DNA of 49,596 bases from Candidatus Aquitaenariimonas noxiae (GCA_002780005.1 PEWV01000018.1:842-50437); one strand, 5' to 3'; counted from the stretch's first letter, positions 1,996 through 19,431 are shown. Numbers and translations are program-made. Notes: generated by a model from the sequence alone, not told the origin.

Positions 1996-2140
1996 TACAC
2001 TCCTCCTGTTTTTCATTTTTAATCTTTTTAAATCTCTTTAATTCCAGGGTAAAAAAAATTATAGCCAAAATTTCTACTTTGGTTCTCTAATTATTTTCTC
2101 TGCTATATGCAACATGTTTCCTTCTGCTTAACCAATTTCA

Positions 2141-5100
2141 CTACCACTTGACAATAATGGTTCCGCCCTTCTGCCATCCGCTATTAACGCCCGCGCGGTC
2201 TGTTGCGTAAAGATATAGATACTTTGGGGTTACGCCGCAAAAAGCAGACTTAAACATTACCTTCCATTGTACAACAAGGTCATTCCCTGAAAAAGTCGCC
2301 CTCGTATTCTGGCAATTTAATTTTACATAGCTATTTTCTATGACCTGGCCCTGCCCCGGATTGAAACCGCCAACCCACGCGCTATCTGAATTATCCCGCA
2401 GATAGAGTTTATTATTTACGCAATTGTAACGGAAATAGCCGCAATACAAACCGTTTACCCTGTAGTTTATCAAGAAAAAGCTGTCGGCCATATCTTTGGC
2501 TCCGTCAAAATCCGAGACTTTTGTAGTAAACGTGTACCATATGTTGGGTTTGAATAAGCCTGTCGAAGGAGTTACGGACACAGCGGACGGCGGGTAATGT
2601 ATTCTTTTATAATATCCCGTATGCTGGGGATCGTGCATAAACATCGGCCAGGGGTTGTGATCTGTTGTGTGCCTCGATTGACCCGGGACAAAACTCTTGC
2701 CGTCTTTATCCACGCAAAAAAGAGCATTGTAGGAATTAAATAATACTTCTAATTTATCATCGCCGTTTAAATCAGCTACCGCAGAACAGGCTTTGCCATA
2801 AACTGGTACGTCTGCCGCATGCCGCCAGATAAGCTGTCCATTTTGATTCAAGCAATAAAAATATTGGTCGTTTAAGTGAATTAATATTTTCATATCCTTA
2901 TCTCCGGCCATGTCAGACACAACAGGTGAAGAAACAGTATAGGTATCACCCCATACGCTATATTCCCATTTAACATTACCGTCTTTATCCAGACAACACA
3001 ACTTAGCATTACATTTGGGGTTGTGATCATTAAAAAATTTACTTACCGCAATTAAGATCTCCTGGCTGCCATCCTTGTTTACATCCGCGATTGCCGGTGA
3101 ATTATAGCACTCGTAATTATCGATTCCCTTGCGCCACTTCAAGACACCTTTATTATCAACGCAATAAAGCGTCTTGCCTGCCCAAAAAACTGTTTCCAAG
3201 GTTCCGTTATTATCCAGATCAGCTACCGCCATCGCTGAAGTTACGCAGCTTCCAGCCGGTGAAGGTAATTCATACTTCCATACAGCTTCAAAATCCTTAT
3301 TTAAACAATATAGCGTCCATTTTTCCGCTCCTGCGTGGTAGCTTAATTCTATAAATAATATCTCGAGTTTTCCGTCGGCATTTATATCCGCGAGTGCGGG
3401 CGAAGTAAAGATATAAGCCCTTTCGCTTGCGGGATCGGCATATAACTTTTTTATAACTTCTCCGTTCTTATTCATGCAATATAAGTTATATAAAGGTATC
3501 TGTCCTATCGTCCCCACGCAGCCGCCGACTATTATCTCCGGGCTACCATCTTTATTCAGATCTGCCACGACAGGAGTGATGCAGGGGCTGATAAAATCGT
3601 CCTTTTCCCACACTAACTTTCCTCTATTGTCAATACAGCAAAATTTACTATATATAGCTCCGCCAGATGTGCTTCGCTGTGCGGCTACTAATATTTCCAT
3701 CTTGCCATCACCGTTAATGTCGTATGCCACCGGAATAGTAGTAGAAGAAAGCCATTTAAACCGCGGCCCCAGATCATAGGACCAAACAAGCTGCGCGTCG
3801 GTATTTAGGCAATAAAGTATACCGTCTTGTGAGGAGGTTATTACTTCTATAGTTCCATTATTATCCAAATCTACTACTATGGCAGAACCCATAAGGTTAC
3901 CAGTTATTTCAAAAGGCCAATATTTGAATACACTGGTAAAGATATTATTAATAGTGCTGTAATTATTGGCTGTTACTGTCAGCCTGAAGCTTATATCATG
4001 CCCTGCAGGGCATTGCGGGCTCACAATAAACCTATAAGGATTATTTGCATTGCTTGCCTGGCTGCCATTAGTTATTATTCCAAAAGAGGCATTAGTCTGC
4101 TCTAGCGTTACATAGGGATCGCCGCATTCCAGCGTAGCAGATACGTTATAGAAATCACCATTCATTGCTTTAAGCGTAACAACTACTTGTATAGTTTCGC
4201 CGGGGTCTATGCGCCCGTCTTTATTTCCGTTAATATCTGTAAAGGTCGTGCCTGCTATTCCTATCTGCGGCCCGACATTAGTTGAGATCGATAGTTCCGG
4301 GTCTCCGAAAAGATTAAGCTCGTAATAACACCACCTCATACAGTCTTCATTTATCCTGTAAGCGTTATCCTCTTTTGAATCCTGGTTCATCTTTCCTATA
4401 TTCTTAATCCCTTCTCCTAAAAAAGCATCCCAGAATTCCCTATCGTAACGTTGTGAAGGGCCATCTGTGGATTCCCCTGTACCCCAACCATATCTTGCGT
4501 TCATAACGCACGCGAAGGCCCCGTTCTTTATAGTTGTGATCTTTTCGGCAAAGCACTCGTTGGTATCAAATGCCCCGGGAAGACAGCCTTGAGAATATAC
4601 AAAAAAAGAAGCAGTGTTGGTAAGCGCAGGCAGATCAGTTGTATGGAGTTTCATATCGTAAGTCTCATTAGCGTGGCCGAGATGGTTTATAATATGCACC
4701 CCTGAATTCATAATATTAATTAACTCGCTTTTGTTCCAATCGTACCCCGGGCTGTCATAAAGGGTGCGCGTATCAAACAATGCCGCGTATTGGGAATTTT
4801 CAAACCCTATTGTCGTATAACTATCCGCGCTTGAGCCAAGACGGATTTGTTCCATAGAATCCGTAGCATATTCCGCTGTCCCTCCGAATCCAAGATACTC
4901 GCCGACCATATGCACTTTTGTCAGATAACTGTTGCGGCAAGTTTCGTATGCTAAGGTTTTACCTACAAAATTCGATACTTCACCGGCTGTCGCAACCGGA
5001 GCCCTCCCGACAGAAACTTCCGCGTAAAGGTCTATGTCCCCTCCGCCTGCGCCGTCATTCGGCTCTCCGTATTTATTATTTCCGTTTCCGTTAAATGTCC

Positions 5101-6247
5101 CGTCCAGGCAGCCGTAATACATATCAACCGGCATGGTGTCCACGTCAGCATCACTGCCCGGCCATGACCTAACATAAAAAAGCCTTGGCGGGATTTTACT
5201 TTTATCGCCGCCTAAAAGCACATATCGAGTGCCATGATTAGAGTAGCAATCTTTTATAAAATTCCGTATTTTTTCCTGCGAGTCAACGCCTGTGTAGTAC
5301 GGATATATATCATTTTGAACGGTAAACATTTTTGCCGTCACGCCGCACGCTATCTTGCTGTTTATAAGATTCGTAAAAGTGTAAGTGCCTGCCGTATTTT
5401 TTAAATCATTTGTTGTTATAATAATATATTTATACTGCTCTGTAGCGGTTACGGCTTGCACATTAACCGGATAGGTACTCAATGTTTCCGGATTATCGAT
5501 AATAGAACGAATTTCATTTTGCAATGCCGGATTTGGTTTAATATCTACATTCTGACTTTGCGCATTAACGGCCGATTGAGACATGAGCACTGTCTCGACC
5601 TGAATTTCCATATCTTTGTAGTAAGCAATTTTTTTAGACTTAGGATAATACTCTAAAGGAATAAGGTTAATTAAAAGAATTGTATAGCCATGTTTTTTCT
5701 GCAAAAACGCATCGCCGCACGGCACTTCAGGGTAGACAATATCATAATTGTATATATCGGGATTCGGTTGGGCTGGTTTCAGTCTATCTTTTTGACTCAA
5801 AGGAGCGGGCCTTTGTGTAGGTTTAATCGAATATTCCCCGGTAATATTAACTTTTGGCCCAAAGATTACTTTAACACCCACTATTTTTTGTCCGTAAGGA
5901 ACAAGAAGTTTTACTGGCTTGAATGGCAATGATGGCGCTCCTGCATTGCCCCAAAGCACTAATCCCGGGATATAAACTTTATGGTATTTCCCGTTTGGCA
6001 CGGATAAAGGCGCAGCAAATGAACATTTAAAAGAATAAACTTTCTGGACAGCACCCTGAGCGCCAAGGGCTTGAACAGGCTGGTTATCAAAAACAGCGCG
6101 CGCCGTATTTCCGCTTTTCGTCCATTGCGTAGCTCCGACCTTCGCGGCGTCGGCATTGGAAATATAAGACACTACCAAAAATAGGCATAAAAAGACGGTT
6201 ATTAATAAAGCGTATAATGTTTTTTCTGCCTTATTCACCGTTTTCAT
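2141..6247 (-). CDS. Gingipain-family (C25) peptidase with beta-propeller repeats
   Basis: 1368 residues with an N-terminal signal peptide (hydrophobic residues about 10 to 29, then NADAA). The ATG at 6247 follows a GAGG ribosome site. A propeptide-like region (about 40 to 260) precedes the C25 domain (about 270 to 660). Candidate catalytic residues are His525 in HLGHANETY and Cys555 in SQGCLPGAFD. An Ig-like segment containing DINGNKDGRIDPGE follows at about 665 to 770. Next come roughly seven FG-GAP/PQQ-like repeats (patterns such as DLDNNGTIEV and DINGDGKMEIL), predicting a calcium-binding beta-propeller at about 780 to 1230. The C-terminal domain is unrecognised. No type IX sorting domain is visible, so export by the neighbouring type II system is possible but inferred. 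It lies 248 bp downstream of the giant protein gene. Confidence 0.88.
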   Translation of the reverse strand: MKTVNKAEKTLYALLITVFLCLFLVVSYISNADAAKVGATQWTKSGNTARAVFDNQPVQALGAQGAVQKVYSFKCSFAAPLSVPNGKYHKVYIPGLVLWGNAGAPSLPFKPVKLLVPYGQKIVGVKVIFGPKVNITGEYSIKPTQRPAPLSQKDRLKPAQPNPDIYNYDIVYPEVPCGDAFLQKKHGYTILLINLIPLEYYPKSKKIAYYKDMEIQVETVLMSQSAVNAQSQNVDIKPNPALQNEIRSIIDNPETLSTYPVNVQAVTATEQYKYIIITTNDLKNTAGTYTFTNLINSKIACGVTAKMFTVQNDIYPYYTGVDSQEKIRNFIKDCYSNHGTRYVLLGGDKSKIPPRLFYVRSWPGSDADVDTMPVDMYYGCLDGTFNGNGNNKYGEPNDGAGGGDIDLYAEVSVGRAPVATAGEVSNFVGKTLAYETCRNSYLTKVHMVGEYLGFGGTAEYATDSMEQIRLGSSADSYTTIGFENSQYAALFDTRTLYDSPGYDWNKSELINIMNSGVHIINHLGHANETYDMKLHTTDLPALTNTASFFVYSQGCLPGAFDTNECFAEKITTIKNGAFACVMNARYGWGTGESTDGPSQRYDREFWDAFLGEGIKNIGKMNQDSKEDNAYRINEDCMRWCYYELNLFGDPELSISTNVGPQIGIAGTTFTDINGNKDGRIDPGETIQVVVTLKAMNGDFYNVSATLECGDPYVTLEQTNASFGIITNGSQASNANNPYRFIVSPQCPAGHDISFRLTVTANNYSTINNIFTSVFKYWPFEITGNLMGSAIVVDLDNNGTIEVITSSQDGILYCLNTDAQLVWSYDLGPRFKWLSSTTIPVAYDINGDGKMEILVAAQRSTSGGAIYSKFCCIDNRGKLVWEKDDFISPCITPVVADLNKDGSPEIIVGGCVGTIGQIPLYNLYCMNKNGEVIKKLYADPASERAYIFTSPALADINADGKLEILFIELSYHAGAEKWTLYCLNKDFEAVWKYELPSPAGSCVTSAMAVADLDNNGTLETVFWAGKTLYCVDNKGVLKWRKGIDNYECYNSPAIADVNKDGSQEILIAVSKFFNDHNPKCNAKLCCLDKDGNVKWEYSVWGDTYTVSSPVVSDMAGDKDMKILIHLNDQYFYCLNQNGQLIWRHAADVPVYGKACSAVADLNGDDKLEVLFNSYNALFCVDKDGKSFVPGQSRHTTDHNPWPMFMHDPQHTGYYKRIHYPPSAVSVTPSTGLFKPNIWYTFTTKVSDFDGAKDMADSFFLINYRVNGLYCGYFRYNCVNNKLYLRDNSDSAWVGGFNPGQGQVIENSYVKLNCQNTRATFSGNDLVVQWKVMFKSAFCGVTPKYLYLYATDRAGVNSGWQKGGTIIVKW

Positions 6248-6332: not shown

Positions 6333-6369
6333 AAAAAAATATAGCACGGCCAACTCTGTGCCAAGCTAT
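6333..6369 (-). terminator. Possible intrinsic terminator or attenuator between giant protein and C25 gene
   Basis: Read on the minus strand, ATAGC (6365-6369) pairs with GCTAT (6341-6345) and GGC with GCC. A two-base internal loop and a nine-base loop remain, and a run of seven T follows at 6333-6339. The stem is short and interrupted. It lies downstream of a possible TATAAT box, so it could attenuate a C25-specific transcript rather than end the upstream one. Confidence 0.35.
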
Positions 6370-6407: not shown

Positions 6408-6431
6408 TTAAAGTATACCACATACTTTAAG
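6408..6431. repeat. Perfect 10-bp inverted repeat in the giant-protein/C25 intergenic region
   Basis: CTTAAAGTAT and ATACTTTAAG flank a four-base centre. The remaining 248 bp of this gap is AT-rich, with the weak terminator-like hairpin at 6333-6369. No T tract follows this repeat, so an operator-like site is at least as likely as a terminator. Function unknown. Confidence 0.5.
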
Positions 6432-6495
6432 ATATACAACGTAAAAATCAAACTTTTTTAACAACTAACACAATAGGTCTGTTCGTAATCCTACT

Positions 6496-9400
6496 TTATA
6501 AGATTCGTTTAACTAATCGAATTATAGGCCGTAGCGCAAACCTTGTTATTTTTCTTAAAACGGGCTTGTTTCTAATATAATCCGCTATTATTGGTGAATG
6601 TCGGTAATAAAATTTTACAAAGGCCGTTCCGAAACTATTATTCATCAGATGCCGGTCCCTAAATTCACAAAGCGTAAGAACCTCTTCTGCCATAGGTGTT
6701 CCAAAAGCTGCTGTAGCTATGAAGCAGCTTCCTCCACTTCCGTCTCCACCTGAACCTCCGGCTATTCCTCCTAAAAGTCCTCCTAAGCCAAAGAAAGAGA
6801 GATGGTTTGTCTTTGCGATTATTCTATTCTCCTCCGGCAATACCACGCACTCGTAGACAGGGTTCCAGGCTGAACCGTCATAGTAGTATAGCCATAGGGT
6901 TTCTTCCTCTATGCCATCGGTATTGTCCACTTTTCCGTCATTATCCTCATCCTGATATGGCACAGTGATAACGATATATTTTTCAGGGCCTGCTGTTTTG
7001 CTTTCCAATTCTATTTCTCTATATATACCTATACCTTTTACGTTGGGATCCTGAGGGTCTGCCACCTCATTTGCTATTTCATCTTTTGACATTATTCTTA
7101 CCTTTACTCTATCATCGGCACTTAAACTGCCTACTGGCACGATGATCTCTGTACCGTCGCTGAGACGGGCTGTGTGAGGTTGGTCTTGTATTACTTTATC
7201 AGTCGCAGAATGCCCCTCAGCATTCAGAGTTTCTACGGAATCTGTTTTCTGGCCGGAGTTATCTATGGTAACAGTAATCGGCTGGGACGAGCATTCTAAG
7301 CCACCTACGGTAAACATGACAGCTTTAAGCGCGTAGGAACCGCCGTTAAGCAATTTGGTGGTATCAACGCTTATTGCATAAGGATATTCCTTTGATGAAC
7401 CCAGATCGATCCATTCTTCTTCATCTGCAGATTTACATCGATAAACGATATATTCAACCATCTTTGGCATATTAGACTCGGCAAGAAGCGTTAAGGCATT
7501 GCCTGATATTGTCTGGTTGTTTTCGGGTTTTAACATATTTACATAGAGCGCGTTAACGTTTGTCGCTTTTATTAGGAATGTTTCTACAAGTTTCCTGCCA
7601 TCGGTGAGCGCTGTTACTAATGCGGCCTTATAATACCCAGGATTTGTATAAACGAATTTGGCTTCAGGCGATGTGCTGGAACAATAATCTATTGTGGCAT
7701 TACCGTCAAAATCCCACATATATCCCTTGATTCCTCCGAGCTGGTTTCCGTTAAGAACGAATTTTGCCTCCAGCGGAGCGACGCCCTCCGTCGGGCTGGG
7801 TGTTATATCTAAAGCAGAAACAACCAAAGTATCATTCTTTAAAACCTTGATCTCTATTTCTTTTCTGGAAGAGATTTTCCTTTCATCTGTAACGATCAAA
7901 GACGCGTTATATACGCCTGCCTCATAGATAAATACTTCCTTTCTATTTGTAAACGAGGTTTTATCATATATGCCGTCTCCATTAAAATCCCATTCATAGC
8001 TTATTATTTTATAACCGGAATTAGTCTCGCAATCAAACTTAACCTTAAGAGGCGCCTGCCCTTTCTTTAGATCGGCATTTAATGTAAAATCCAGCGGAGA
8101 AGAACATTCGGCTGCCGTTACCAAGATCTCAGATGTCGCGCTTAAGCCATTGCTGCATACCGCCTCTACGAGAACCAAGTGGGCCCCTGCCAATGTAAAT
8201 GTTTTAACTACGTTGGCCATACGGGTTTCTTTATCATATACGCCGTCACCGTCAAAATCCCACCTGTAGAACAGGATTTCTTCATCGCTTTGCGGGCATA
8301 AGCAGGATACATTAAAGTTCACCCTAAGCGGTGTAGTACCGGTAAGCTTATCAGCTTCGAAGCTTTTTATTAACGGGCTATCGGGATTAGGATTCACAGT
8401 TACCAGTACTGTCCTTTCGACAACTAGGCCTTTATTGGTCATCGCCCTTAAAGTAGCAGGATAATCTCCTTTAGCAGTATAGGTATGCGAGGCATTTCCG
8501 CTCTCATTAGAGCTGTAATCCCATCTTCCTCTTCCGTCGAAGTCCCATTCATATTTGATAATGCTCCCTCCTGGTATACGAGCGGTAGCGGTAAACGCAA
8601 CCTCCAATGGCGCAGAACCTTCTTGCGGAATTGCAGAGACTTTTACGTCTATATCGGCTATATCTGTCTGTGGTGAGATTACCGTTATTGTCTTTGTTGC
8701 CGGAGCGCTTTGGAAGTTGTCTTTATTTGTTGCGACGAGCGTTACTTCATAAGTGCCTATATAATCAAAGGGATGCGTGGGGTTCTGTTCTGTTGAGGTT
8801 TGACCGTCCCCGAATGACCATTTACATTTTGTGCCTCCGGTGCCGGCAGGGTCAGTAATAACTGCTTTAAATTTAACTTTCAGAGGGGCATAACCTGACT
8901 CTGTGTCACATTCGATGCTTGCCGTAGGATTTATATCCACATTCCCTGCTTCCATTTTTACAGTCTGCGAATCGATCAGTTTTCCATCAGATACGCTGAA
9001 AGTAACATTATATACACCTGCCTGAGTATAATCAGGAGTCCAGGTAAACGTCCGGTTTTTAAAGGCCGCACCCCGCGGTAAATTGCTTGCTGAATATGTC
9101 AAGGCGTCACCTTCGGGATCGGTAGCTATGATTGTGAACTTTAGCACCTGGCCTTCATTGACTGTCTTATCTTCTATAAGGTCAAGAACGGGAGAATAAT
9201 TCATAGAATTCAAAGTAAGAGCTTGCACCTCGGAAGTTTTCTCTGATTCATTTCCTGCCGCGTCATAAGCAGACACCTGGTAGGCATAGGTAGTGCCCGG
9301 CTGGAGTTCAATATCTGAATATGATAAAGATGCGGTCTCGGCAATAATTATTTCATCTCTATAAATTACATATCCTGTAACGCCCATATTATCTATTGAG

Positions 9401-12400
9401 GCCGACCAATTTAAGTTTATTTGTGAAGAAGAAAGCGGTTCGGCCTGAAGGTTTGCGGGTATAGAAGGTGGTTCGGTATCCTGAACCGGACTTTCAACAT
9501 ACTCATAAGGCCCTATATCGCAGGCGCTGCCTTGAGGCCTGCTCGTGCCGTCAAAATCTGATTCGGCAAGGCGTGTTTTAGCGATAACACTTCCGGCATC
9601 AACGGCCGGACTGGCTGAGGAGAGATGGAAATTTCTGCTTATTGCGCTCACAAATTGAGGATCAGCTATTAAAGAGGTTTGTTCCGGAGGAGTTGACAGC
9701 TTTGTTTTGTAGTATAAATTATGGTCGCCGTTCCGGAGCATATCGCCCACTTTATTTTTATCAAAAACTATATCTGTATCGCAGAATATATTGTGAGATA
9801 TTATTGCTGATGCTGTTCCGCTGCCTTGGAAATCAACACTTCCGTTGAAACTCAAGGAATTGATTAATTTATACCCCGGATTCCCCTTGCCTATAAAGTT
9901 AAAGCTGTAGTTATAAGGGTTATCGTAAGCAATGCAATTAATCAGCGTAGCGTTGCTCCAGATCGCGTAACCATTCTTTCCGTTATCATAGGATTTACAA
10001 TTTATCAAAGTCGTATTATTAGGCTTTATATCAAATCCGCTGTTAGAAAAGTTGTAGGCGGTGCAATTCCTTAATATATGGTAGCTCTCCTCGCCCTGGA
10101 TACTGATCGCATCTTCATTATAATCATAAGTCCCCCGGGCAACCACGCAATTTTCGAGCAAAGTATTTTCCTGGCCGTCCTTATAGGGCCATCCGATAAA
10201 AATACCGTTTTCTGTATGATGGATATAGCAGTTGCGCGCAATAAATCTATTGCCAGTTTTGATCAAGGTGCCATCGCTCTCATGTAAGCCCTGTATTAGT
10301 ATCGCCCTGAACGTATTTTTAATTTCGACGTCCTTGACCAGGATATTCTCTTTTCCGGAACAGGCTTCGATGCCTATACCGCCATTTTTGTTAGCCCTAA
10401 TCAACTTACCATTAGAATCGTGATAATAATATACTGAACCAACACCATCAATAATGAAACCTTCGATGATAACGTTGTTTTGCGGTGAAATATTCTTCCA
10501 GGAAGCTCCGCCGCCATATGAATACCCGGCATTACTTATATACGTCGGTCCTTGTATTACTGCCTTACCCTTTTCTGCAGACTTAAATATAATAGGCTCA
10601 TCAGGCGTTCCGGAATCTGTGAAAAGTACTTGTTCTACATAAACCCCTTCTTCCACAATAACCCCGTCTCCCGGCTGGAGAAGCCCGGTATTGGTGGCCC
10701 TATTAATAGTATTAAATGGCTTGCTGAAACTACCGTCATTGTTATCAGAGCCTCTTGAAGCAGAAACATAGTATGTCATTCCTGTAATAGTATACGTGTC
10801 CCCCGGATCCCAAAGTTCCTTAACAACAATTGTTACAGTTTCAACATCGGTTAGGGTTCTATCGCTTACTGTAAAAGCCACATCATAACTTCCTACCTGC
10901 TCATAAGTAGGCCTCCAACTAAAGGTTTGGCTTTTAAAAGTTGCACCTTGCGGTAACTTGTCAGCTGAATAGGTTAGCGTATCTCCGTCAGGCTCTGTTG
11001 CGCTTATTGTGAATTCCAGCAGTATTCCTTTATAAACGGCCTTATTACCTATAGCTTCAAACACAGGAGGTCTATTTGTGTTATTTACTGTAATGGTAAT
11101 AGTCTCTGAACTATTTAAGGTCCCGTCAGTTGCGCTAAAGGTTATTTTGTATGTTCCTGCCTGGTCATAGGTTGGTGTCCAGGAGAATGTTTTTCCGTCA
11201 AATGCAGCGCCTATTGGCAGATCTGCGGCTGTAATTGTTACTTTATCGCCATCCGGGTCTGTTGCTGACACGGTGAAGGATAAAAGAGCATTCTCATTTA
11301 CAGATTTATTGCCTATGGGGCTAAGGACTGGCGATCTATTCACATTATTCACCACGATGGTGATAGTCTCTGAACTATTTAAGGTCCCGTCAGCTGCGCT
11401 AAAGGTTATTTTGTATGTTCCTGCCTGGTCATAGGTTGGTGTCCAGGAGAAGACTTTTCCGTCAAATGCAGCGCCTATTGGCAGGTCTGAGGCTGTGATT
11501 GTTACTTTATCGCCATCCGGGTCTGTTGCTGACACGGTGAAGGATAAAAGAACATTCTCATTTACAGACTTATTGCCTATGGGGCTAAGCGCAGGAGGTC
11601 TGTTTACATCTCCTACACTTATGGTACTGACCTCTGAATCATTTAGATTTCCGTCTGTTACACCAAAGGTTATTTCATAACTTCCTGTCTGGTCATAAGT
11701 AGGCCTCCATGAGAAGGTCTGGCCTGATAAGGTCGCTCCAGCCGGCAAGCCTGAAGCTGTATAAGTTAAAGCATCACCTTCGGTATCTGTGGCGCTTAAG
11801 GAAAATGCTAATATATCATTTTCGTTCACGATTTTATTCCCGATAGCGGCAAGCACCGGCGCGTCATTAACGGGCGCGATAGAAATGCTTACCGTGGCAA
11901 TATTAGAATCTAGTTGTCCGTCACTGACCTTAAAGGTAAAAGAATCTGTTCCGTTATAGTCTGCCTTAGGCGTATAAGTGGCGGTATTGCCTTGCAACTG
12001 GGCCTCCCCATTACCAGGCGGTACTACTAAGCTATAGGTAAGCGGATCATTATCCGGGTCAGAAGCCACTAAGGTAATAACTACTGCCTTATCTTCATCA
12101 GTAACGGCTCCGGCATCTTGTGCTTTCGGAGGCTGATTCACATTGCCCACAAGGATAGTTATGGTTTCTGATACGCTGAGAGTGCCGTCGCTGGCTGTAA
12201 AGGTAACTCCATAATTGCCGGCCTGGCTAAAATCAGGAGTCCAACGGAAAAGTAACCCGTCAAAGGTTGCGCCGGCAGGTAATTCGGAAGAACTAATAGT
12301 TACACTGTCGTTATCCGCATCGCTAGCAGTGACATTAAAGGTTAATAATTCATTTTCGTTTATATTCTTGTTGCCTATAGCAGCCAACACAGGCGCGCGA

Positions 12401-15400
12401 TTAGTGTTATTAACTGTTATGGTAATAGACTCAGAGTCTGTACCTCCATTGCCATCGTTTACAGTAAAGGTAACTGGATAACTCTCGGCTTGGGTATAAT
12501 CCGGGACCCAAACAAAATCTCCGGTAGGAGAATTAAGGCTGGCACCGTTAGGCAAAACGTCAGCAGCGTAAGTCAATATATCGCTGTCAGGATCTGTAGC
12601 GTAAAGGGTAAACCTAAGCTCTGAGGCTTCACTCACAGATCGGTTACCTATCGTTGTCAGTACCGGCGCGTCGTTGACCGGCGTAATAGATATACTTACC
12701 GTGGCAATATTTGAATTTTCATGGCCGTCATTGGCTATAAAAGTAAAACTAATGCTGCCATTGTAGTTAGTAGCCGGTATATAAGTAAGGTTCGGCGCGC
12801 TGCCGCTCAAAGCCCCATGGGGCGGTGGAGTTACTATTGTGTAGCTAAGTACGTCACCATCGGCGTCAGATGCGCTAAGCGTTATATTCTTGGCAATATC
12901 TTCATCGGTAGTTACAGACTGGTCATTTGCTATCGGCGCTCTGTTTACCTTGTTTACCGTAATAGTTATCGCCTCGGAATCATTTAAGCTTCCGTCAGTT
13001 ACGACAAAGGTTATGCTGTGTGTTCCTACCTGTTCAAAAGTCGGTGTCCAGGAAAATGCCCCTGTAGACGCATTAAGGCTTGCGCCGGCAGGTAGTTTGT
13101 CTGCCGAATATGTAAGTGGGTCGCCATCCGCATCTGTGGCGGATATGGTGAACGATAACAAGGAATTCTCATTAACTGATTTATTCCCGATCGCGCCAAG
13201 CACAGGCGCCCTGTTTACATTATTCACTGTAATGGTGATATCTTCAAAGTCTATATCAATCCCGTCTGTTACTTGGAAATGCACTCCTGCATATGTGCCT
13301 GCCTGGTTATAGTTCGGCGTCCAGGAAAATACCCTCGTAGACGCATCAAAGCTTGCGCCGGCAGGCAGGTTGCTTGCCGAATATGTCAGCGGATTGCCAT
13401 CCGCATCTGTGGCGGATATGGTGAACGATAATAAAGAACCTTCATCAACTGATTTATTTCCAATCGCCCCAAGCACAGGCGGAGAATTGCCGCTGGCCGG
13501 AAGTATTGTGACTTGCGCGGATCTTCCGCTGCCGGTTGCTGTCCCATCATAACCCTGGACAGTGCATTTCCAGATCTCGCCGACAGTCGTTTTATCCGCA
13601 GTAACGGTGTTTGTTATAAGATCAGTCTGCTGCGTGTTATTTTTATACCATGTGTATTTGTAAGTCACAGGATCGCCGTCCGCATCAGTAGAACCACTGG
13701 CTGAAGCGACCAGATCGGCATTGTCAGGCGGCGCGCTCGGGCTTATTGTTACCGTAGTAGGCTGCGTAGGCGCCGCATTGGATATTGTCTTTGTAGCGCT
13801 AATAGAAGGGCCATCCGAGGTTCCGTCATTAGGCGTAACTGTGCATTTCCAGGTTTGCCCTTTCGTAGTTAGAGACGCAGAGACCGTATTTGTGGTTAAA
13901 CTTGCCTGTAAAACATTATTCAAATACCACGCATATTTATAAGTAATAGGGTCACCTTCCAGATCCGTCGAACCGCTTGGCTGGGTGACCAAATTATTTG
14001 TGGTATAGGCCGTAGCCGGACTTATAGTAAGTGTGGGCATGGTAGGCGAATTGTTACTGGTAGACAGCGTATCAATGTACGCTACAGCGCTACTCTGGCC
14101 ATCCGGAACATTCATTGGAAAGGTATCATTGGATACATAACCTTTACCGTCGTACAAAAGAGAGACGCAATCGAGAGTACCTGTAGAACCGCTCCTATAG
14201 TCGCTAACCTCCACAAACCAGCGCTTGGTGGCGCTAGGCGGCAGATACGCAAGTCCATCGGTAATATCGCATGAAGTATTGATATCTGGATAGTTACCCC
14301 CATCCATCCAATATTGGTCCTTGCTCCAGTTGGGATTTGCCGGGGCGCCGCATCCCACCCTCAGATGTAACTGCCCGCGGCTGGGATGGCGGATATTTAT
14401 CCGCAACCGGGCTTGCGGCTGATAACCAATGCGGTCTACCATCTTGTATCCGCCATGGGAGGCAAACACAAATGGATAGGATAACCATATATATCCGTCT
14501 CCGCTCCACCCGCTTCCCCAGGAATTGAACATCTTAAACGCGCCGTATCTTATTTCTCCGTTGGCATCGGTATATTGGCGGGTATCATCATATCCCACTA
14601 TCGTTACCGCATGACCTCCTCTAGCGCTATAGCCGGGCCTCCACCCGTCATGCACGTCATTTCCTCCGTTTTCCGGAATGTTCCCATACGTATCAATACC
14701 GATCACAAAAATATCACCGCTATTAAGTTGGTTTTTCGCGTTTTGCAGACCCGATGACCACAGAGAAACGTAAGAATAGCTTGTTCCTCGATATGGCATA
14801 GCGGCTTCGCACTGCACCTGATTCGGCCAAGTGTACACATCCGAAGGATTATAAACATCCATCGTTGCGCAACCCTTATCCATGATCACACTAAAAGCAT
14901 CTCCGAAATATGCGCCACTATCGGAACCGCCGTTGATCTGGTTATAGAGAAACAGTCCGCTGAAGAGATGGTTATTTGTAGTCACACCCCACCCATGCTC
15001 CTTGTTTTCCTGGTATGTCTTATATCCGTATCCTACCGCAAACCCAACGCAACTGCTGCCGTTTTGGCTTATTGCCCGAGGCATGTTCGAAGAAAGATCA
15101 AGAGATGTGCCTGGAGTTACAGCCACTATAATGCTTTTAGTAACCTCACCTTCCGCGTCGCGTGCCTTAAAGTTTAAAGTGTATTCCACTCCGGATTGGC
15201 CGCTTGAAGGTGTAAATGTAAATATTCTCGTTGCCTGGTCGACCGCTGCCCCGGCAGGAAGGCTTGGGTCGGTATATGTTATAGGGTTATTCTCAGGGTC
15301 GGTAGCTTTAACGTTAAGGGTAAGCGTATAGTTTACACAGACAAAATAAGTGTTGTAAGCCTTTCTATCAAAAGCCGGAACGGCTGCTTCGGCAGAAGCC

Positions 15401-15474
15401 TGCAGAAGCAAAAATGCTTCAGCCATTAATAGCGCGCATATCGTCCATTTTATAAACCTTCTTCCAATACCCAT
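6496..15474 (-). CDS. Giant secreted multidomain protein: papain-like peptidase, cadherin/He_PIG array, beta-helix, PKD domains, CFI-type tail
   Basis: 2992 residues. A signal peptide (about 1 to 30) leads to an Ig-like domain, then a C1A papain-type peptidase (about 125 to 345) with Cys142 in NGSSCVGF, His288 in GGHAVTIVGYDD and Asn317 in FNSWGSGWSG. Gln137 is a candidate oxyanion-hole residue. Ten cadherin-like/He_PIG repeats of about 88 residues follow (about 663 to 1555; typical phrase PIGNKSVNEN). A right-handed parallel beta-helix resembling polysaccharide lyases ends in an SPAVDAGS...DIGPYEY motif (about 1560 to 1985). Next come Fn3 (about 1990 to 2085), one more He_PIG repeat, five PKD domains (about 2180 to 2640), an Ig-like and a ZU5-like region. 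A GGSGGDGSGG linker and the CFIATAAFG tail (about 2912 to 2992) finish it. The start lies two bases after the upstream stop. It is probably cell-surface or extracellular; protease and lyase activities are predicted, not shown. Confidence 0.9.
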   Translation of the reverse strand: MGIGRRFIKWTICALLMAEAFLLLQASAEAAVPAFDRKAYNTYFVCVNYTLTLNVKATDPENNPITYTDPSLPAGAAVDQATRIFTFTPSSGQSGVEYTLNFKARDAEGEVTKSIIVAVTPGTSLDLSSNMPRAISQNGSSCVGFAVGYGYKTYQENKEHGWGVTTNNHLFSGLFLYNQINGGSDSGAYFGDAFSVIMDKGCATMDVYNPSDVYTWPNQVQCEAAMPYRGTSYSYVSLWSSGLQNAKNQLNSGDIFVIGIDTYGNIPENGGNDVHDGWRPGYSARGGHAVTIVGYDDTRQYTDANGEIRYGAFKMFNSWGSGWSGDGYIWLSYPFVFASHGGYKMVDRIGYQPQARLRINIRHPSRGQLHLRVGCGAPANPNWSKDQYWMDGGNYPDINTSCDITDGLAYLPPSATKRWFVEVSDYRSGSTGTLDCVSLLYDGKGYVSNDTFPMNVPDGQSSAVAYIDTLSTSNNSPTMPTLTISPATAYTTNNLVTQPSGSTDLEGDPITYKYAWYLNNVLQASLTTNTVSASLTTKGQTWKCTVTPNDGTSDGPSISATKTISNAAPTQPTTVTISPSAPPDNADLVASASGSTDADGDPVTYKYTWYKNNTQQTDLITNTVTADKTTVGEIWKCTVQGYDGTATGSGRSAQVTILPASGNSPPVLGAIGNKSVDEGSLLSFTISATDADGNPLTYSASNLPAGASFDASTRVFSWTPNYNQAGTYAGVHFQVTDGIDIDFEDITITVNNVNRAPVLGAIGNKSVNENSLLSFTISATDADGDPLTYSADKLPAGASLNASTGAFSWTPTFEQVGTHSITFVVTDGSLNDSEAITITVNKVNRAPIANDQSVTTDEDIAKNITLSASDADGDVLSYTIVTPPPHGALSGSAPNLTYIPATNYNGSISFTFIANDGHENSNIATVSISITPVNDAPVLTTIGNRSVSEASELRFTLYATDPDSDILTYAADVLPNGASLNSPTGDFVWVPDYTQAESYPVTFTVNDGNGGTDSESITITVNNTNRAPVLAAIGNKNINENELLTFNVTASDADNDSVTISSSELPAGATFDGLLFRWTPDFSQAGNYGVTFTASDGTLSVSETITILVGNVNQPPKAQDAGAVTDEDKAVVITLVASDPDNDPLTYSLVVPPGNGEAQLQGNTATYTPKADYNGTDSFTFKVSDGQLDSNIATVSISIAPVNDAPVLAAIGNKIVNENDILAFSLSATDTEGDALTYTASGLPAGATLSGQTFSWRPTYDQTGSYEITFGVTDGNLNDSEVSTISVGDVNRPPALSPIGNKSVNENVLLSFTVSATDPDGDKVTITASDLPIGAAFDGKVFSWTPTYDQAGTYKITFSAADGTLNSSETITIVVNNVNRSPVLSPIGNKSVNENALLSFTVSATDPDGDKVTITAADLPIGAAFDGKTFSWTPTYDQAGTYKITFSATDGTLNSSETITITVNNTNRPPVFEAIGNKAVYKGILLEFTISATEPDGDTLTYSADKLPQGATFKSQTFSWRPTYEQVGSYDVAFTVSDRTLTDVETVTIVVKELWDPGDTYTITGMTYYVSASRGSDNNDGSFSKPFNTINRATNTGLLQPGDGVIVEEGVYVEQVLFTDSGTPDEPIIFKSAEKGKAVIQGPTYISNAGYSYGGGASWKNISPQNNVIIEGFIIDGVGSVYYYHDSNGKLIRANKNGGIGIEACSGKENILVKDVEIKNTFRAILIQGLHESDGTLIKTGNRFIARNCYIHHTENGIFIGWPYKDGQENTLLENCVVARGTYDYNEDAISIQGEESYHILRNCTAYNFSNSGFDIKPNNTTLINCKSYDNGKNGYAIWSNATLINCIAYDNPYNYSFNFIGKGNPGYKLINSLSFNGSVDFQGSGTASAIISHNIFCDTDIVFDKNKVGDMLRNGDHNLYYKTKLSTPPEQTSLIADPQFVSAISRNFHLSSASPAVDAGSVIAKTRLAESDFDGTSRPQGSACDIGPYEYVESPVQDTEPPSIPANLQAEPLSSSQINLNWSASIDNMGVTGYVIYRDEIIIAETASLSYSDIELQPGTTYAYQVSAYDAAGNESEKTSEVQALTLNSMNYSPVLDLIEDKTVNEGQVLKFTIIATDPEGDALTYSASNLPRGAAFKNRTFTWTPDYTQAGVYNVTFSVSDGKLIDSQTVKMEAGNVDINPTASIECDTESGYAPLKVKFKAVITDPAGTGGTKCKWSFGDGQTSTEQNPTHPFDYIGTYEVTLVATNKDNFQSAPATKTITVISPQTDIADIDVKVSAIPQEGSAPLEVAFTATARIPGGSIIKYEWDFDGRGRWDYSSNESGNASHTYTAKGDYPATLRAMTNKGLVVERTVLVTVNPNPDSPLIKSFEADKLTGTTPLRVNFNVSCLCPQSDEEILFYRWDFDGDGVYDKETRMANVVKTFTLAGAHLVLVEAVCSNGLSATSEILVTAAECSSPLDFTLNADLKKGQAPLKVKFDCETNSGYKIISYEWDFNGDGIYDKTSFTNRKEVFIYEAGVYNASLIVTDERKISSRKEIEIKVLKNDTLVVSALDITPSPTEGVAPLEAKFVLNGNQLGGIKGYMWDFDGNATIDYCSSTSPEAKFVYTNPGYYKAALVTALTDGRKLVETFLIKATNVNALYVNMLKPENNQTISGNALTLLAESNMPKMVEYIVYRCKSADEEEWIDLGSSKEYPYAISVDTTKLLNGGSYALKAVMFTVGGLECSSQPITVTIDNSGQKTDSVETLNAEGHSATDKVIQDQPHTARLSDGTEIIVPVGSLSADDRVKVRIMSKDEIANEVADPQDPNVKGIGIYREIELESKTAGPEKYIVITVPYQDEDNDGKVDNTDGIEEETLWLYYYDGSAWNPVYECVVLPEENRIIAKTNHLSFFGLGGLLGGIAGGSGGDGSGGSCFIATAAFGTPMAEEVLTLCEFRDRHLMNNSFGTAFVKFYYRHSPIIADYIRNKPVLRKITRFALRPIIRLVKRIL
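11101..11588 (-). repeat. Recent tandem duplication of one 264-bp He_PIG module
   Basis: The segments at 11101-11324 and 11365-11588 lie exactly 264 bp (88 codons) apart. By eye they differ at about nine of 224 bases. The other modules of the array are related mainly at protein level, so this pair is the youngest duplication in the giant gene. Confidence 0.9.
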
Positions 15475-15476
15475 TT

Positions 15477-16583
15477 TTATAACCCTTCCTCTACTTTCTC
15501 CGGCTTCTTTTCATCTGAAATCAGGCCTGTAGGATAATCAAATTTTCCAGGTTCTCCCACGTAAAAATTTTCTGTCCACTCTCTACCCTCGCTGTCCTTT
15601 ATTGTCAAAGTTACCGAAGGCGGGCTCGTGGTAATAGCATCATCAGAAACATCTATTAAGAATCTGGCGTTGAATCGGCCTTTCGCCTCAACAAAATCCA
15701 GCTTTGCTTCACCCTCTAATACTGTTACAGAGGCATTATCAGCTGTTGCAGTCACGGTTAAACCTTTAGCCTTTCCATTCCCTTGATTATCCAAATATAC
15801 GGTAAACGCCACTTTCTCTCCAGGGCCGGCCACGTTATCAAGATTGCCTTTTGTCCCGGGAGTAACGCCATCATCCACTTTTATGTCAGCAAACCGTATT
15901 CTTGGCGCTGCTTTTACTTCTACATGAACCGGCACTACTGCTATCTCCTCTTTATTTAGACCTAATATTATTAAATTGGTGCTATTACTTCCTATCTCCA
16001 GGTTTGAAGCAACGGCAGCCAGTTTGACATCCAGGGTTTCACCCGGCCCTAAAATCCCGTAATAAGGAAATTGTATAAGCCACGGCGCGCCCCTGAATAA
16101 TCCTGTTTTTTCTAAGTCCTCTTCAGCCGGCTTTTCGGGAAGCTTATCTTTCTTGTAGGCAATTAATTGCTCTACTGCCTGATCGATCTCGGCGGGTGTA
16201 TCTGCTTTATCGACCTTGTAAATGTTAAAGAGGACCTTTCCAGGACCATCATTAATAAGCGTGAATTCCGAGCTTTTTCTTCCGCCTTCTTCAACTTCTA
16301 TTTCAACTTCAGACGGCTCTGTCCTTAAACGGGCAGATAAAACCGCTTCCTGCTCAGCAGGCGCTTCTGCTTCCGGAGTTTCCTGTAAAGCAGGTTTTGC
16401 CTCTTTGGGTTTATCGACTTTAGGTCCCTTAACCGGCTCCTCTTCTTTGATCAATATCTCCTCAGCCTTTTCTTTCTTTAACAACTCGGGCTTCTGCCTT
16501 GACATAAAATGGATAGAGGCTAGGGCGACTATCCCTGCAAAAATAATCATAGCACCTATAATTAAAATCCTCTTTCCCTTCAT
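15477..16583 (-). CDS. Single-pass membrane protein with Ig-like/CARDB-like extracytoplasmic domains
   Basis: 368 residues from the ATG at 16583. A 379-residue version from 16616 would overlap gspC and read through a poly-G run, so the shorter start is preferred. One transmembrane helix (about 5 to 25) follows a short KGKR cytoplasmic start. Next is a charged Pro/Glu/Lys linker (about 30 to 85), an Ig-like beta domain (about 90 to 215) and a CARDB-like domain (about 225 to 350; GPGEKVAFTVYLDNQGNG). The layout mirrors GspC: inner-membrane anchor, flexible linker, periplasmic domains. It is encoded between gspC and the giant protein with a two-base gap to the latter. A role in handling that cargo is attractive but only inferred from position. 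No catalytic motif seen. Confidence 0.8.
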   Translation of the reverse strand: MKGKRILIIGAMIIFAGIVALASIHFMSRQKPELLKKEKAEEILIKEEEPVKGPKVDKPKEAKPALQETPEAEAPAEQEAVLSARLRTEPSEVEIEVEEGGRKSSEFTLINDGPGKVLFNIYKVDKADTPAEIDQAVEQLIAYKKDKLPEKPAEEDLEKTGLFRGAPWLIQFPYYGILGPGETLDVKLAAVASNLEIGSNSTNLIILGLNKEEIAVVPVHVEVKAAPRIRFADIKVDDGVTPGTKGNLDNVAGPGEKVAFTVYLDNQGNGKAKGLTVTATADNASVTVLEGEAKLDFVEAKGRFNARFLIDVSDDAITTSPPSVTLTIKDSEGREWTENFYVGEPGKFDYPTGLISDEKKPEKVEEGL

Positions 16584-16588
16584 TTCCG

Positions 16589-16597
16589 CCCCCCCCC
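16589..16597 (-). other. Poly-G tract (G9) overlapping the ribosome-binding region of the membrane protein gene
   Basis: Nine C on the plus strand (16589-16597), followed by seven T (16598-16604), give A7G9 just upstream of the ATG at 16583. The tract lies between the gspC stop and this start, where the Shine-Dalgarno sequence should be. Length changes would shift ribosome-site spacing, or frame if the upstream start at 16616 is used. Confidence 0.8.
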
Positions 16598-16602
16598 TTT
16601 TT

Positions 16603-17361
16603 TTAATACATAACAAATTTCAGATCCTTGACCGATCCCTGACGCAGGATCTTTACATAAATTACAGGTTTATTTTTAACTTTTTCATAAATTTTAAAAC
16701 AGGATGGGATGCTTACTATGGACTCGCCATTTACCGCAAGAACTATGTCTTTCTCTTTCAAACCAGCTTTATTAAGCATGGGTTTATCTTTAAAAGATTC
16801 TATCTTAATGCCCTTGAACTTTCCTTCATCTATGTAAGGCAAAAATTTTCCTTGCGAAAAAATATGGTTGGAATTCTTCACTTCCTGTATCAGAAGGTCT
16901 TTATCGATGTGCTTTTCACTCTTAGAAACTGATGTTACCGCATCGTCTTCCTGGGTGGTAAGGGTAATTTCGACATCTTCACATCTCAAGATCACGCTGC
17001 CTAACTGGATATCCACCAACTTAAATCCTTCTATGGTGTCTCCTGCGGCGTAGGCATTCTTTTCGGATGTGCGTTCATTTCTGATGATCGCCCGCGGGTC
17101 CCGGTAGCCGCCAAGGACTGTAGCTAACAGCTTTAATTTTGGGATGTTAATGGAAACTTCGTTTTTTTCCTTAGGGGAGACTACAGATGTGGTGGGCACA
17201 TAGCCCATCTGGGTCAACTTCTCTTTACCGGCCTTTTCTTCAGTCGAGCGCCCTATACATGAGATACTTTTTTGTGTATAGAGGACAGAATTGAAGACCG
17301 AAATAAAAAGAAGAAGAAGCCCCATTACTATTAATATTATAAAGACATTTACTCTTTTCAT
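16603..17361 (-). CDS. gspC: Type II secretion system protein C (GspC-like) with PDZ domain
   Basis: 252 residues with the GspC layout. A short cytoplasmic N-terminus and one transmembrane helix (about 6 to 28) lead to a periplasmic linker. The homology-region domain (about 75 to 136) contains LKLLATVLGG, RAIIRN and AAGDTIEGFKLVDI, and a PDZ domain (about 165 to 250) includes AGLKEKDIVLAVNG. In type II secretion, GspC links the inner-membrane platform to the outer-membrane secretin GspD and helps choose substrates. The start ATG follows a GAGGTAG site. It is the first gene after the c-di-GMP riboswitch and terminator, and the first of a run ending in large secreted proteins. No other secretion genes except gspE are in the window. 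Confidence 0.83.
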   Translation of the reverse strand: MKRVNVFIILIVMGLLLLFISVFNSVLYTQKSISCIGRSTEEKAGKEKLTQMGYVPTTSVVSPKEKNEVSINIPKLKLLATVLGGYRDPRAIIRNERTSEKNAYAAGDTIEGFKLVDIQLGSVILRCEDVEITLTTQEDDAVTSVSKSEKHIDKDLLIQEVKNSNHIFSQGKFLPYIDEGKFKGIKIESFKDKPMLNKAGLKEKDIVLAVNGESIVSIPSCFKIYEKVKNKPVIYVKILRQGSVKDLKFVMY

Positions 17362-17483
17362 GATACACTACCTCATTATGATATATAATATGTACATATA
17401 AAACTGGCTTCGTCTTCATCTTCTTATCCAATTCCTTGTTTGGTCTTCCTTTAATTCTTTCCATTACAAACTCACTTTCCAAT

Positions 17484-17517
17484 AAAAAAACCCTATTTTA
17501 CCATCCGTAAAATAGGG
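17484..17517 (-). terminator. Intrinsic terminator of the riboswitch expression platform
   Basis: On the minus strand an 11-bp perfect stem (CCCTATTTTAC with GTAAAATAGGG) closes a five-base GGATG loop. Seven T follow at 17484-17490. It begins a few bases after the 3' strand of aptamer P1, the usual arrangement of a transcription-terminating riboswitch. The next gene, gspC, starts 122 bp further on. Confidence 0.92.
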
Positions 17518-17521
17518 CCGA

Positions 17522-17628
17522 TTGTAACTGCTCTTAATTTGGCAGCCCTGCCGCCGTATCCTGTCTTATTTGAGGACTTAGGCCGTAGGCTTTGCGCCCC
17601 ACCCTTTCGGATGGTTTACCTTTTACAA
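17522..17628 (-). promoter_or_regulatory. c-di-GMP-I (GEMM) riboswitch aptamer
   Basis: The minus strand shows class-defining parts in order. P1 is TTGTAA (17623-17628) paired with TTACAA (17522-17527). Next come AAAGGTAAACC, a P2 hairpin CCATCC-GAAA-GGGTGG with a GNRA loop, and the conserved CGCAAAGCC block. A tetraloop receptor-like CCTAAG...TACGG follows, then a P3-side GGCAGGGCTGCC. This order matches the GEMM-I consensus, whose ligand is cyclic di-GMP. The 8-mer ACCATCCG (17608-17615) is the exact reverse complement of CGGATGGT in the terminator (17500-17507), giving a plausible antiterminator. The predicted logic is ligand bound, terminator formed, gspC and downstream genes off. The aptamer call is strong; the switching direction is inference. 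Confidence 0.92.
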
Positions 17629-17667
17629 ATTTAAGTATTTAAAAGAACCTTTTTATCTCTATTATAA

Positions 17668-17695
17668 GTATAGCCTATAATCAAGGAAAAGTAAA
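17668..17695 (-). promoter_or_regulatory. Sigma-70-type promoter ahead of the riboswitch
   Basis: TTTACT (17690-17695) and TATACT (17668-17673) are separated by 17 bases. A TATAAT at 17661-17666 is an alternative -10. The start would fall about 30 bases before the aptamer, in the gap after the gspE stop, so the riboswitch operon can be transcribed without gspE. Confidence 0.6.
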
Positions 17696-17730: not shown

Positions 17731-19431
17731 TTACTCTTTAGTTACGCGTATTACTTCTTCTGGCGTTGTAATGCCCATGAGGATCTTCTCCCACCCATCC
17801 ATGCGAAGGGTGCGCATACCAAGCGAAATAGCCTTCTTTCGTATCTGGTCTGCCGAAGATTTTTTTAAGACGAGTTCTTCTATAGGTTTGGTTAATAGCA
17901 TAATTTCATAAATCGCTGTCCTGCCCTTATAGCCGGTAAACTTGCAGTATTCGCACCCCTTGCCTGCGTAAAACTTCTTACCCTTGCTTTTTTCTATCGG
18001 GATGCCTAACTCCTTTTTTACGCTTTTTTCAAGTTTAATTTCTTTCTTGCACTTCTTACATATGATCCTTACAAGGCGTTGCGCTACAACGGCGTTGATA
18101 GAACTCGCGGCCAAAAATGGTTCTACTGACATATCCAACAGGCGCGTCATGGCTCCGGGCGCATCATTTGTATGGATTGTGCTGAAAACCAAATGGCCGG
18201 TAAGGGCTGCTCGTATGGTAATTTCGACTGTCTCATAATCCCTGACTTCTCCTACCATCATTATGTCCGGGTCATGCCTAAGCATGCTCCTCAAGCCGGT
18301 CGCAAAATCAAGTCCTATTTTTGGCTGAACTTGAATTTGCGTGATCCCTTTCATGCGGTATTCTATAGGGTCTTCGATCGTAATAATTTTTTTCTCTTTA
18401 GTATTTATCCTGTTCAGGCACGCGTAAAGCGTCGTGGTCTTACCGCTCCCGGTAGGCCCGGTTACAAAAATTATACCGTGCGGCTTCTTTATCATCGATT
18501 CGATTAATTTTAGGTCCTGCGGAAGGAACCCAAGGCCTTCTAGGTCAAAGAGCATCTTTGTCGGGAGAATTCTTATGTCAACGCCTTCTCCGTGAGCGGT
18601 AGGCAGGACAGAAACCCTTAAATCTAATTCTTCATTTTTTACTTTTATTTTTATTCTTCCGTCTTGGGGAAGGCGGCGTTCAGCTATGTTAAGATTTGCC
18701 ATGATTTTTATTCTTGAAACAATCGCTGACTGGAAATGTTTGATCGCATGCGGGATCGTCATATCATAAAGGAGCCCATCAATTCTATATCTCACAATTA
18801 ATTCATCTTCATATGGTTCTATGTGAATATCTGTAGCCCTATCATTATACGCTTGAAATAGTATCTGATTTACAAAATTGATCATTGATGCATCTTCAGT
18901 CAATTCACCGATATCTTTGGTTTCTTGCAAAGAAAATCTCATTTCTTCTGATGCGCCGCCGCTTTCGGCTATCATTTTTTCTATAGTGTCGGCCCCCACC
19001 CCGTAATAGGTTCTTATTGCTTCCAGTATATCTATTTCCCCGGCTAAAACAGGTTCTATATCGCAGGATAAGAGTAGCTTTAAATCATCTAAAGTATGAA
19101 TATCCGTGGGATCTGTAACGGCCACGATCAAAGTATTGCCTTTTTCTTTTATAGGCATAAGTTTATAATGGCAGGCAAATTTGGCGGACACCCTTTTAAT
19201 AACAGAAGGGTCTATTTTAAGTTCTTTGATCTTTGTATATTTAACATTAAGATATTTTGCAAGAACGGGCATCAGTTTCTCTTCTGTCAAAAAGCCCAAT
19301 TTTAGCAGGATCTTATCCAGAGATTCATGCGTCTTCTTCTGCTCTTGAATGGCTTCTTTCAGCTGATCTGTAGCAATTAATTTACTATCAACTAACATTT
19401 CGCCAAGTGAAATATTTTTTTTAATACCCAT
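17731..19431 (-). CDS. gspE: Type II secretion / type IV pilus assembly ATPase (GspE/PilB family)
   Basis: 566 residues. The N-terminal domain (about 7 to 150) resembles the MshEN/T2SSE-N fold: SLGEMLVDSKLI and a second SLDKILLKLGFL motif with LxxxL spacing. Such domains bind c-di-GMP in some relatives, but the usual first-motif Arg and Gly are replaced by Ser here. The ATPase core has Walker A GPTGSGKT (325-332), an Asp box EDPIEY, Walker B DPDIMMVGEVRD (387-398) and a His box GHLVFSTIHTND. A zinc tetracysteine site is at C458, C461, C493 and C496. The protein would power secretion pseudopilus assembly from the cytoplasmic face. GspE and PilB are hard to tell apart; gspC next door favours GspE. 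It has its own promoter and a GAGG ribosome site. Confidence 0.88.
   Translation of the reverse strand: MGIKKNISLGEMLVDSKLIATDQLKEAIQEQKKTHESLDKILLKLGFLTEEKLMPVLAKYLNVKYTKIKELKIDPSVIKRVSAKFACHYKLMPIKEKGNTLIVAVTDPTDIHTLDDLKLLLSCDIEPVLAGEIDILEAIRTYYGVGADTIEKMIAESGGASEEMRFSLQETKDIGELTEDASMINFVNQILFQAYNDRATDIHIEPYEDELIVRYRIDGLLYDMTIPHAIKHFQSAIVSRIKIMANLNIAERRLPQDGRIKIKVKNEELDLRVSVLPTAHGEGVDIRILPTKMLFDLEGLGFLPQDLKLIESMIKKPHGIIFVTGPTGSGKTTTLYACLNRINTKEKKIITIEDPIEYRMKGITQIQVQPKIGLDFATGLRSMLRHDPDIMMVGEVRDYETVEITIRAALTGHLVFSTIHTNDAPGAMTRLLDMSVEPFLAASSINAVVAQRLVRIICKKCKKEIKLEKSVKKELGIPIEKSKGKKFYAGKGCEYCKFTGYKGRTAIYEIMLLTKPIEELVLKKSSADQIRKKAISLGMRTLRMDGWEKILMGITTPEEVIRVTKE

Follow-up and report, generated by a model that had tools for sequence, protein, structure and literature searches.

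A GEMM-I riboswitch with the predicted anatomy of an OFF switch precedes GspC and a giant CFI-box protease in a type II secretion locus of Candidatus Omnitrophota

The window analyzed here is a stretch of 49,596 nucleotides (nt) from Candidatus Aquitaenariimonas noxiae, corresponding to positions 842-50437 of contig C73 in a 1.93-Mb genome (81 contigs, 97% complete). It contains an aptamer of the cyclic di-GMP (c-di-GMP) riboswitch class c-di-GMP-I (GEMM-I), which is followed by a terminator and situated between the type II secretion system (T2SS) genes gspE and gspC, on the same strand as both. An earlier note, made from the sequence alone, had proposed this arrangement and a covariance search with the Rfam c-di-GMP-I model. 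Both aptamer and terminator were borne out: across the window, cmscan returned RF01051 as the single Rfam match, at 17538-17630 on the minus strand, scoring 70.9 bits (cut-off 35, E 5.2e-12) and covering the full model 1-87, with a hairpin and T-run at 17489-17519. The nearest relatives of the window gspE belong to Candidatus Omnitrophota, the top one being 69% identical. The features of this part of the locus, in window coordinates, are as follows.

17731-19431, minus strand: gspE/PilB-type ATPase gene with an MshEN domain (T2SSE 439 bits, MshEN 66 bits; GspE/PilB models, NF053729)
17667-17695, minus strand: promoter-like site TTTACT-17-TATACT, 5' of the aptamer (consensus scan, 9/12)
17538-17630, minus strand: c-di-GMP-I (GEMM-I) aptamer with G20 (RF01051 70.9 bits; R1 model 78 bits)
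17501-17520, minus strand: putative switching strand CGGCCCTATTTTACGGATGG, the terminator 5' arm plus loop, complementary to the aptamer P2 region (duplex -25.7 kcal/mol)
17489-17519, minus strand: intrinsic terminator hairpin and T-run (13 pairs, 4 of them G-C; -17.1 kcal/mol)
16603-17361, minus strand: gspC, with a transmembrane segment, T2SSC homology region and PDZ domain (class profile A6, built in part from this protein, gives 293.6 bits)
15477-16583, minus strand: membrane-anchored Ig-like adaptor protein, 368 residues from ATG 16583 (transmembrane and Ig-like regions read from sequence; weak TIGR03900)
6496-15474, minus strand: 2992-residue secreted papain-type/cadherin-Ig/PKD protein
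6520-6726, minus strand: CFI-box-CTERM domain at the C-terminal end of that protein (NF041770 94.3 bits, cut-off 40)

The gspE gene lies upstream of the switch and is therefore outside its control. Behind the aptamer, the succession named in the earlier note (gspC, a membrane adaptor-like protein, a 2992-residue papain-type protein and two C25 peptidases) is present on the same strand with the corresponding domain matches. The spacing is 19 nt between gspC and the adaptor gene and 2 nt between the adaptor gene and the giant, taking the adaptor to start at ATG 16583. The window gspC has the layout of a GspC, with a transmembrane segment, homology region and PDZ domain in the neighborhood of gspE, its PDZ match being exactly at the cut-off; the adaptor protein has no Pfam match.

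The 2992-residue giant combines a signal-peptide-like start, a papain-like domain, cadherin/Ig and PKD repeats, a choice-of-anchor Q domain and a CFI-box-CTERM tail. Its Pfam Peptidase_C1 match is slightly under the cut-off (20.2 vs 20.7 bits), and its papain triad Cys142/His288/Asn317 is intact, with the His/Asn region aligned to C1 structures and the Cys assigned by eye. Among solved C1 proteases, phmmer matched it to 3ois (E 2.1e-6), falcipain-3 and Lpg2622. By model search, its CFI-box-CTERM domain is the sole one in the source genome. A 944-residue He_PIG protein on contig C40, whose tail resembles the CFI box, was considered as a second one and rejected on the same search.

The window aptamer, AAAAGGUAAACC, carries G, the c-di-GMP-type letter, at position 20 (Vc2 numbering). 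Position 20 is the ligand-selecting position of GEMM-I aptamers (PMC9262584), and among 110 surveyed class elements 99 have G there and 11 have A, the 3',3'-cyclic GMP-AMP (cGAMP) type. The genome encodes two clear diguanylate cyclases, with GGEEF and a c-di-GMP-type GHxxGD. The ligand of the window switch is thus probably c-di-GMP, as judged from these letters. That it is cGAMP instead appears highly improbable: A20 aptamers do occur in the class, one of them in the source genome, but the window aptamer has G20 and both clear cyclases have the c-di-GMP-type GHxxGD.

The arrangement of aptamer and terminator bears on the direction of the switch, for which the earlier note had named none. The terminator starts 19 nt past the aptamer with no overlap, and therefore the two structures can coexist. 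The terminator 5' arm plus loop, CGGCCCUAUUUUACGGAUGG, is predicted to form a 17-pair duplex of -25.7 kcal/mol with the aptamer P2 region, a value reached in 0 of 1000 dinucleotide shuffles (mean -15.0, sd 2.3). For RNAs of 132-138 nt, in which the terminator 3' arm is incomplete, the predicted aptamer-disrupting fold is better than the enforced aptamer by 11.6-14.5 kcal/mol. By prediction, the locus thus combines the two parts of an OFF switch, a terminator compatible with the aptamer and an antiterminator that breaks it. Aptamer, terminator, their complementarity and the gene order are read directly in the DNA; the ligand and the direction of switching are what we infer from them.

The same anatomy test, covering terminator position and complementarity, was run on 111 GEMM-I elements of the class. 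In 72 of them the terminator lies downstream of the aptamer, and in 25 the terminator 5' arm overlaps the aptamer 3' strand, an ON-like arrangement; for the other 14 a terminator was not found by the test. Complementarity between arm and aptamer that at most 5 of 100 shuffles reach was present in 24 of the 72 downstream-terminator elements vs none of the 25 ON-like ones. ON-like elements are known in the class and also in the source genome (contigs C27 and C56), which lends something to the alternative that the ligand increases gspC and protease expression, as in Geobacter pilM. We nevertheless regard an ON switch as improbable at this locus, since no strand of the aptamer takes part in the window terminator, whose arm and loop show complementarity to the aptamer far above chance. 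The window switch has the anatomy of an OFF switch, and this model predicts repression by c-di-GMP, with the protease made at low c-di-GMP. The ON-like element of contig C27 (L010:9551-9629) precedes a 1768-residue secreted PKD/FG-GAP protein and would have the opposite sign to the window switch.

The relation between gspC and the giant was assessed with a GspC profile, A6, built from five GspCs including the window one and searched against 197 class genomes, counting full-length genes above 80 bits. Eleven GspCs were retrieved, and all 11, from several families, neighbor a same-strand CFI-box gene (the CFI-box matches used for comparison came from 30 of the 197 genomes). In ten genomes, 29 to 1430 nt separate GspC from the CFI-box domain; the window gspC lies two genes ahead of the CFI-box giant. 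Five of the 11 are in the profile or come from a genome with a profile row, and three such rows had been chosen from CFI-box loci. The remaining six (G039, G119, G107, G124, G176 and G072) are independent of the profile, and the probability of their placement by chance is roughly estimated at ~2e-14. CFI-box genes also adjoin the secretion genes themselves: L054 has the order CFI-box protein, gspC, gspE, gspF, its GspC homolog passing T2SSC (29.3 vs 27), and gspE and gspF follow a CFI-box protein at G119:C97.

Related genomes repeat the pairing of this adaptor type with this class of surface protein, which supports a link between machine and cargo. The suggestion of the earlier note that the giant is the probable T2SS cargo of this GspC is strengthened by this recurrence, as far as comparative sequence evidence goes. 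The competing view is that the riboswitch is real, with the giant and GspC being mere neighbors and the giant reaching the surface by another route. Most class CFI-box genes do have no A6-type GspC within 1.5 kb, in keeping with that view, but the consistent placement of all 11 A6-type GspCs beside CFI-box genes in several families, and of CFI-box genes beside gspE-gspF in L054 and G119, makes it unlikely. The catalytic residues of the giant and the GspC/CFI-box recurrence are direct observations; co-transcription and secretion at the window locus are what we infer. As a separate observation, genome G124 (family f16), with 23 CFI-box matches, exceeds the usual number many times over.

These results suggest the following model. 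The leader would be transcribed from a promoter past gspE or by read-through out of gspE; the promoter-like site is weak, the total of the consensus scan being near chance (7 vs 5.1). As strand CGGCCCUAUUUUACGGAUGG emerges at low c-di-GMP, it would act as an antiterminator by invading the aptamer, so that gspC, the Ig-like protein with its membrane anchor and the 2992-residue CFI-box protease would be produced. At high c-di-GMP, the liganded aptamer would retain P2, the terminator would fold and transcription would end. GspC, with its PDZ domain, would complete the T2SS and aid export of its CFI-box partner, a papain-type protease that may be held at the surface or released and that the cell would deploy at low c-di-GMP. 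We favor, with moderate confidence, this reading of the locus as a transcriptional c-di-GMP OFF switch inside a type II secretion locus, with GspC helping to export the CFI-box partner.

Several points weigh against this reading. The folding energies are predictions, and the antiterminator varies with transcript length, earlier intermediates preferring pairing with P1 strands and later ones with P2. The window gspC scores under the curated cut-offs (T2SSC 21.2/27, NF041515 74.9/150, TIGR01713 65.1/101.6), and T2SS export of the giant is deduced from its neighborhood alone. Among 80 gspE loci examined for GEMM-I placement, the order gspE-GEMM-gspC is unique to the source genome. In the nearest relative, L041, the GEMM-I has additional hairpins, and its position 20 is C.

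The reach of control beyond the giant depends on the following features.

6341-6369, minus strand: terminator-like hairpin with a T7 run behind it, within the 248 nt that separate the giant from the first C25 gene (fold and sequence)
2141-6247, minus strand: C25 peptidase with FG-GAP propeller (Pfam C25 177.9 bits; gingipain-type His525/Cys555)
1-2016, minus strand: second C25 peptidase open reading frame (ORF), cut by the contig end within a He_PIG-type repeat (C25 67.7 bits)

The hairpin at 6341-6369 was not flagged by the terminator consensus scan. Also in this gap, a perfect inverted repeat spans 6408-6435; this repeat, CTTAAAGTAT-GTGGT-ATACTTTAAG, might serve as an operator or form an RNA hairpin. 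The earlier note had proposed shared control of gspC and the protease genes by one c-di-GMP switch. This is supported for gspC, the adaptor and the giant, which follow the aptamer with gaps of 19 and 2 nt and form the safe control unit; control of the C25 genes is left open because of the 248-nt gap with its terminator-like hairpin, and for these genes, as for gspF-M, it is possible.

The remaining secretion genes are found on contig C40, which carries gspF, pseudopilin-like genes, gspK, L/M-like genes and the secretin gene gspD, so that the T2SS set gspE, gspC, gspF, pseudopilins, gspK and gspD is present across the window and C40. On C40, the ORF ahead of gspF is cut at the right contig end inside a He_PIG repeat (profile 31-95), and the second C25 ORF leaves the left end of C73 with the apparent first residues of a He_PIG repeat, NKPPVLQPIGNQ. 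No contig besides C40 and C73 was found to have He_PIG, and the strand and orientation of the two halves are compatible with a join. An exact sequence overlap was sought and none was found, adjacency being argued from the split repeat. C40 and C73 may thus adjoin, with a gap of ~50 bp; the join would give the order gspE, switch, gspC, adaptor, giant, C25, C25, gspF-M, gspD.

Given such a join, the switch might govern the entire T2SS locus, including both C25 genes, gspF-M and gspD. The complementary He_PIG halves at two contig ends, in matching orientation and on no third contig, speak for this, as do the location of gspF-D on C40 and the GEMM-I immediately before gspF-L in L041. Set against it are the 248-nt gap and terminator-like hairpin past the giant and the putative nature of a join between ends that have no sequence in common, and we consider whole-locus control somewhat unlikely. 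The preferred control unit remains gspC-adaptor-giant.

In L041 the GEMM-I (39.3 bits) lies 100 nt past gspE and before gspF-H-I-J-K-L; given its added hairpins and C20, it may be altered or decaying. We rejected gspE-GEMM-gspC as a phylum-wide order, a GEMM-I directly past gspE being found in just one of the 80 gspE loci besides the window. Elsewhere, a GEMM-I lies between a type IV pilus/T2SS platform gene and a pilin-like gene in L122, L149 and L175, and directly 5' of CFI-box genes in family f16 (L290, 62.4 bits; L278, L281 and L288 are weaker, under Rfam cut-offs). L290 and L278 are orthologs of one genus, so the f16 cases are not four independent ones.

Nearly every sampled genome of the Omnitrophota class (54 of 59) has GEMM-I, with up to 17 elements in a ~1.6-Mb genome. 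The ORF just 3' of the element is at least 1000 residues long in 19 of 110 surveyed cases, and pilin-like genes come next in nine. Two further patterns were recorded. On contig C69, two GEMM-I elements lie 750 nt apart on one strand (L007:4101-4185 and 4936-5028), the A20 (cGAMP-type) one before a DPBB/RlpA-like gene and the G20 one before a 445-residue protein without a Pfam match; a homologous pair may exist in G032 and G017 (L123, L130). A family of small proteins (~85-110 residues, motif FLDxxGKDALFSTGxKLSRxxII, ribbon-helix-helix-like by eye) is encoded by the first gene past GEMM-I in L136, L148, L150, L178, L179 and L200, and a member also adjoins a GspC/CFI-box pair in G051 (L275:2748-3002).

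GEMM-I switches and T2SS are each already well known. Our search of the literature, mostly papers open without subscription, found no switch placed inside a T2SS locus ahead of both the adaptor and a cargo embedded there; the search on the CFI-box C-terminal domain found no paper, and in the main genome survey of the Omnitrophota we found neither riboswitches nor c-di-GMP mentioned. The GspC/CFI-box pairing gives the CFI-box domain a testable role and bears on the open question of T2SS cargo recognition, and our survey suggests cyclic-dinucleotide riboswitches in nearly every sampled genome of a lineage known for giant surface proteins.

A wider reading, which we hold tentatively, is that CFI-box-CTERM is a surface-sorting tag for T2SS exports with a dedicated GspC, and that GEMM-I times the machine-cargo pair in several Omnitrophota lineages, as part of a cyclic-dinucleotide regulon that covers giant surface proteins across the class and uses both ON and OFF switches. 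The sorting role is a hypothesis by analogy with MYXO-CTERM and GlyGly-CTERM, C-terminal tags of T2SS-exported surface proteins (PMC11980579, PMC13393428). A conserved Cys is common to MYXO-CTERM and the CFI box. Unlike both tags, the CFI box belongs to another domain family, lacks an obvious single transmembrane helix with an Arg cluster and has no known sortase.

Direct control of GspE by c-di-GMP through MshEN was also considered, MshE/GspE-type ATPases that bind c-di-GMP being known (PMC5013675). The window gspE likewise has an MshEN domain, but its two 24-residue binding motifs (RLGxx...G...Q) are degenerate although the domain models match: position 1 is Ser in both, and Gly10, Gly3 and Gln24 are each missing from one motif or the other. 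Key residues of both motifs are thus changed, as in the non-binding XpsE, and direct control of GspE is not claimed.

Vibrio GbpA is a protein exported by the T2SS. The Vc1 switch before gbpA (PMC6366702) resembles the window in placing a GEMM-I ahead of a secreted protein, but it sits on the cargo gene alone. In layout, the window switch is like the Cd1 OFF riboswitch of C. difficile, which also has a GEMM-I aptamer, a compatible downstream terminator and an aptamer-breaking antiterminator, in contrast to the ON switch pilM, whose aptamer and terminator are mutually exclusive (PMC9262584). Cd1 controls flagellar genes, whereas the genes behind the window switch, in a different phylum, encode a T2SS adaptor and a giant protease. 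Regulatory logic similar to that predicted here is known from another C. difficile class I switch, through which high c-di-GMP lowers the secreted protease ZmpI/PPEP-1, the adhesin substrates of this protease being raised by other switches (PMC6366702). ZmpI/PPEP-1 is a zinc metalloprotease of a Gram-positive bacterium without a T2SS, its switch lying outside any secretion locus, whereas the window protease is papain-type and encoded, with its switch, inside a T2SS locus.

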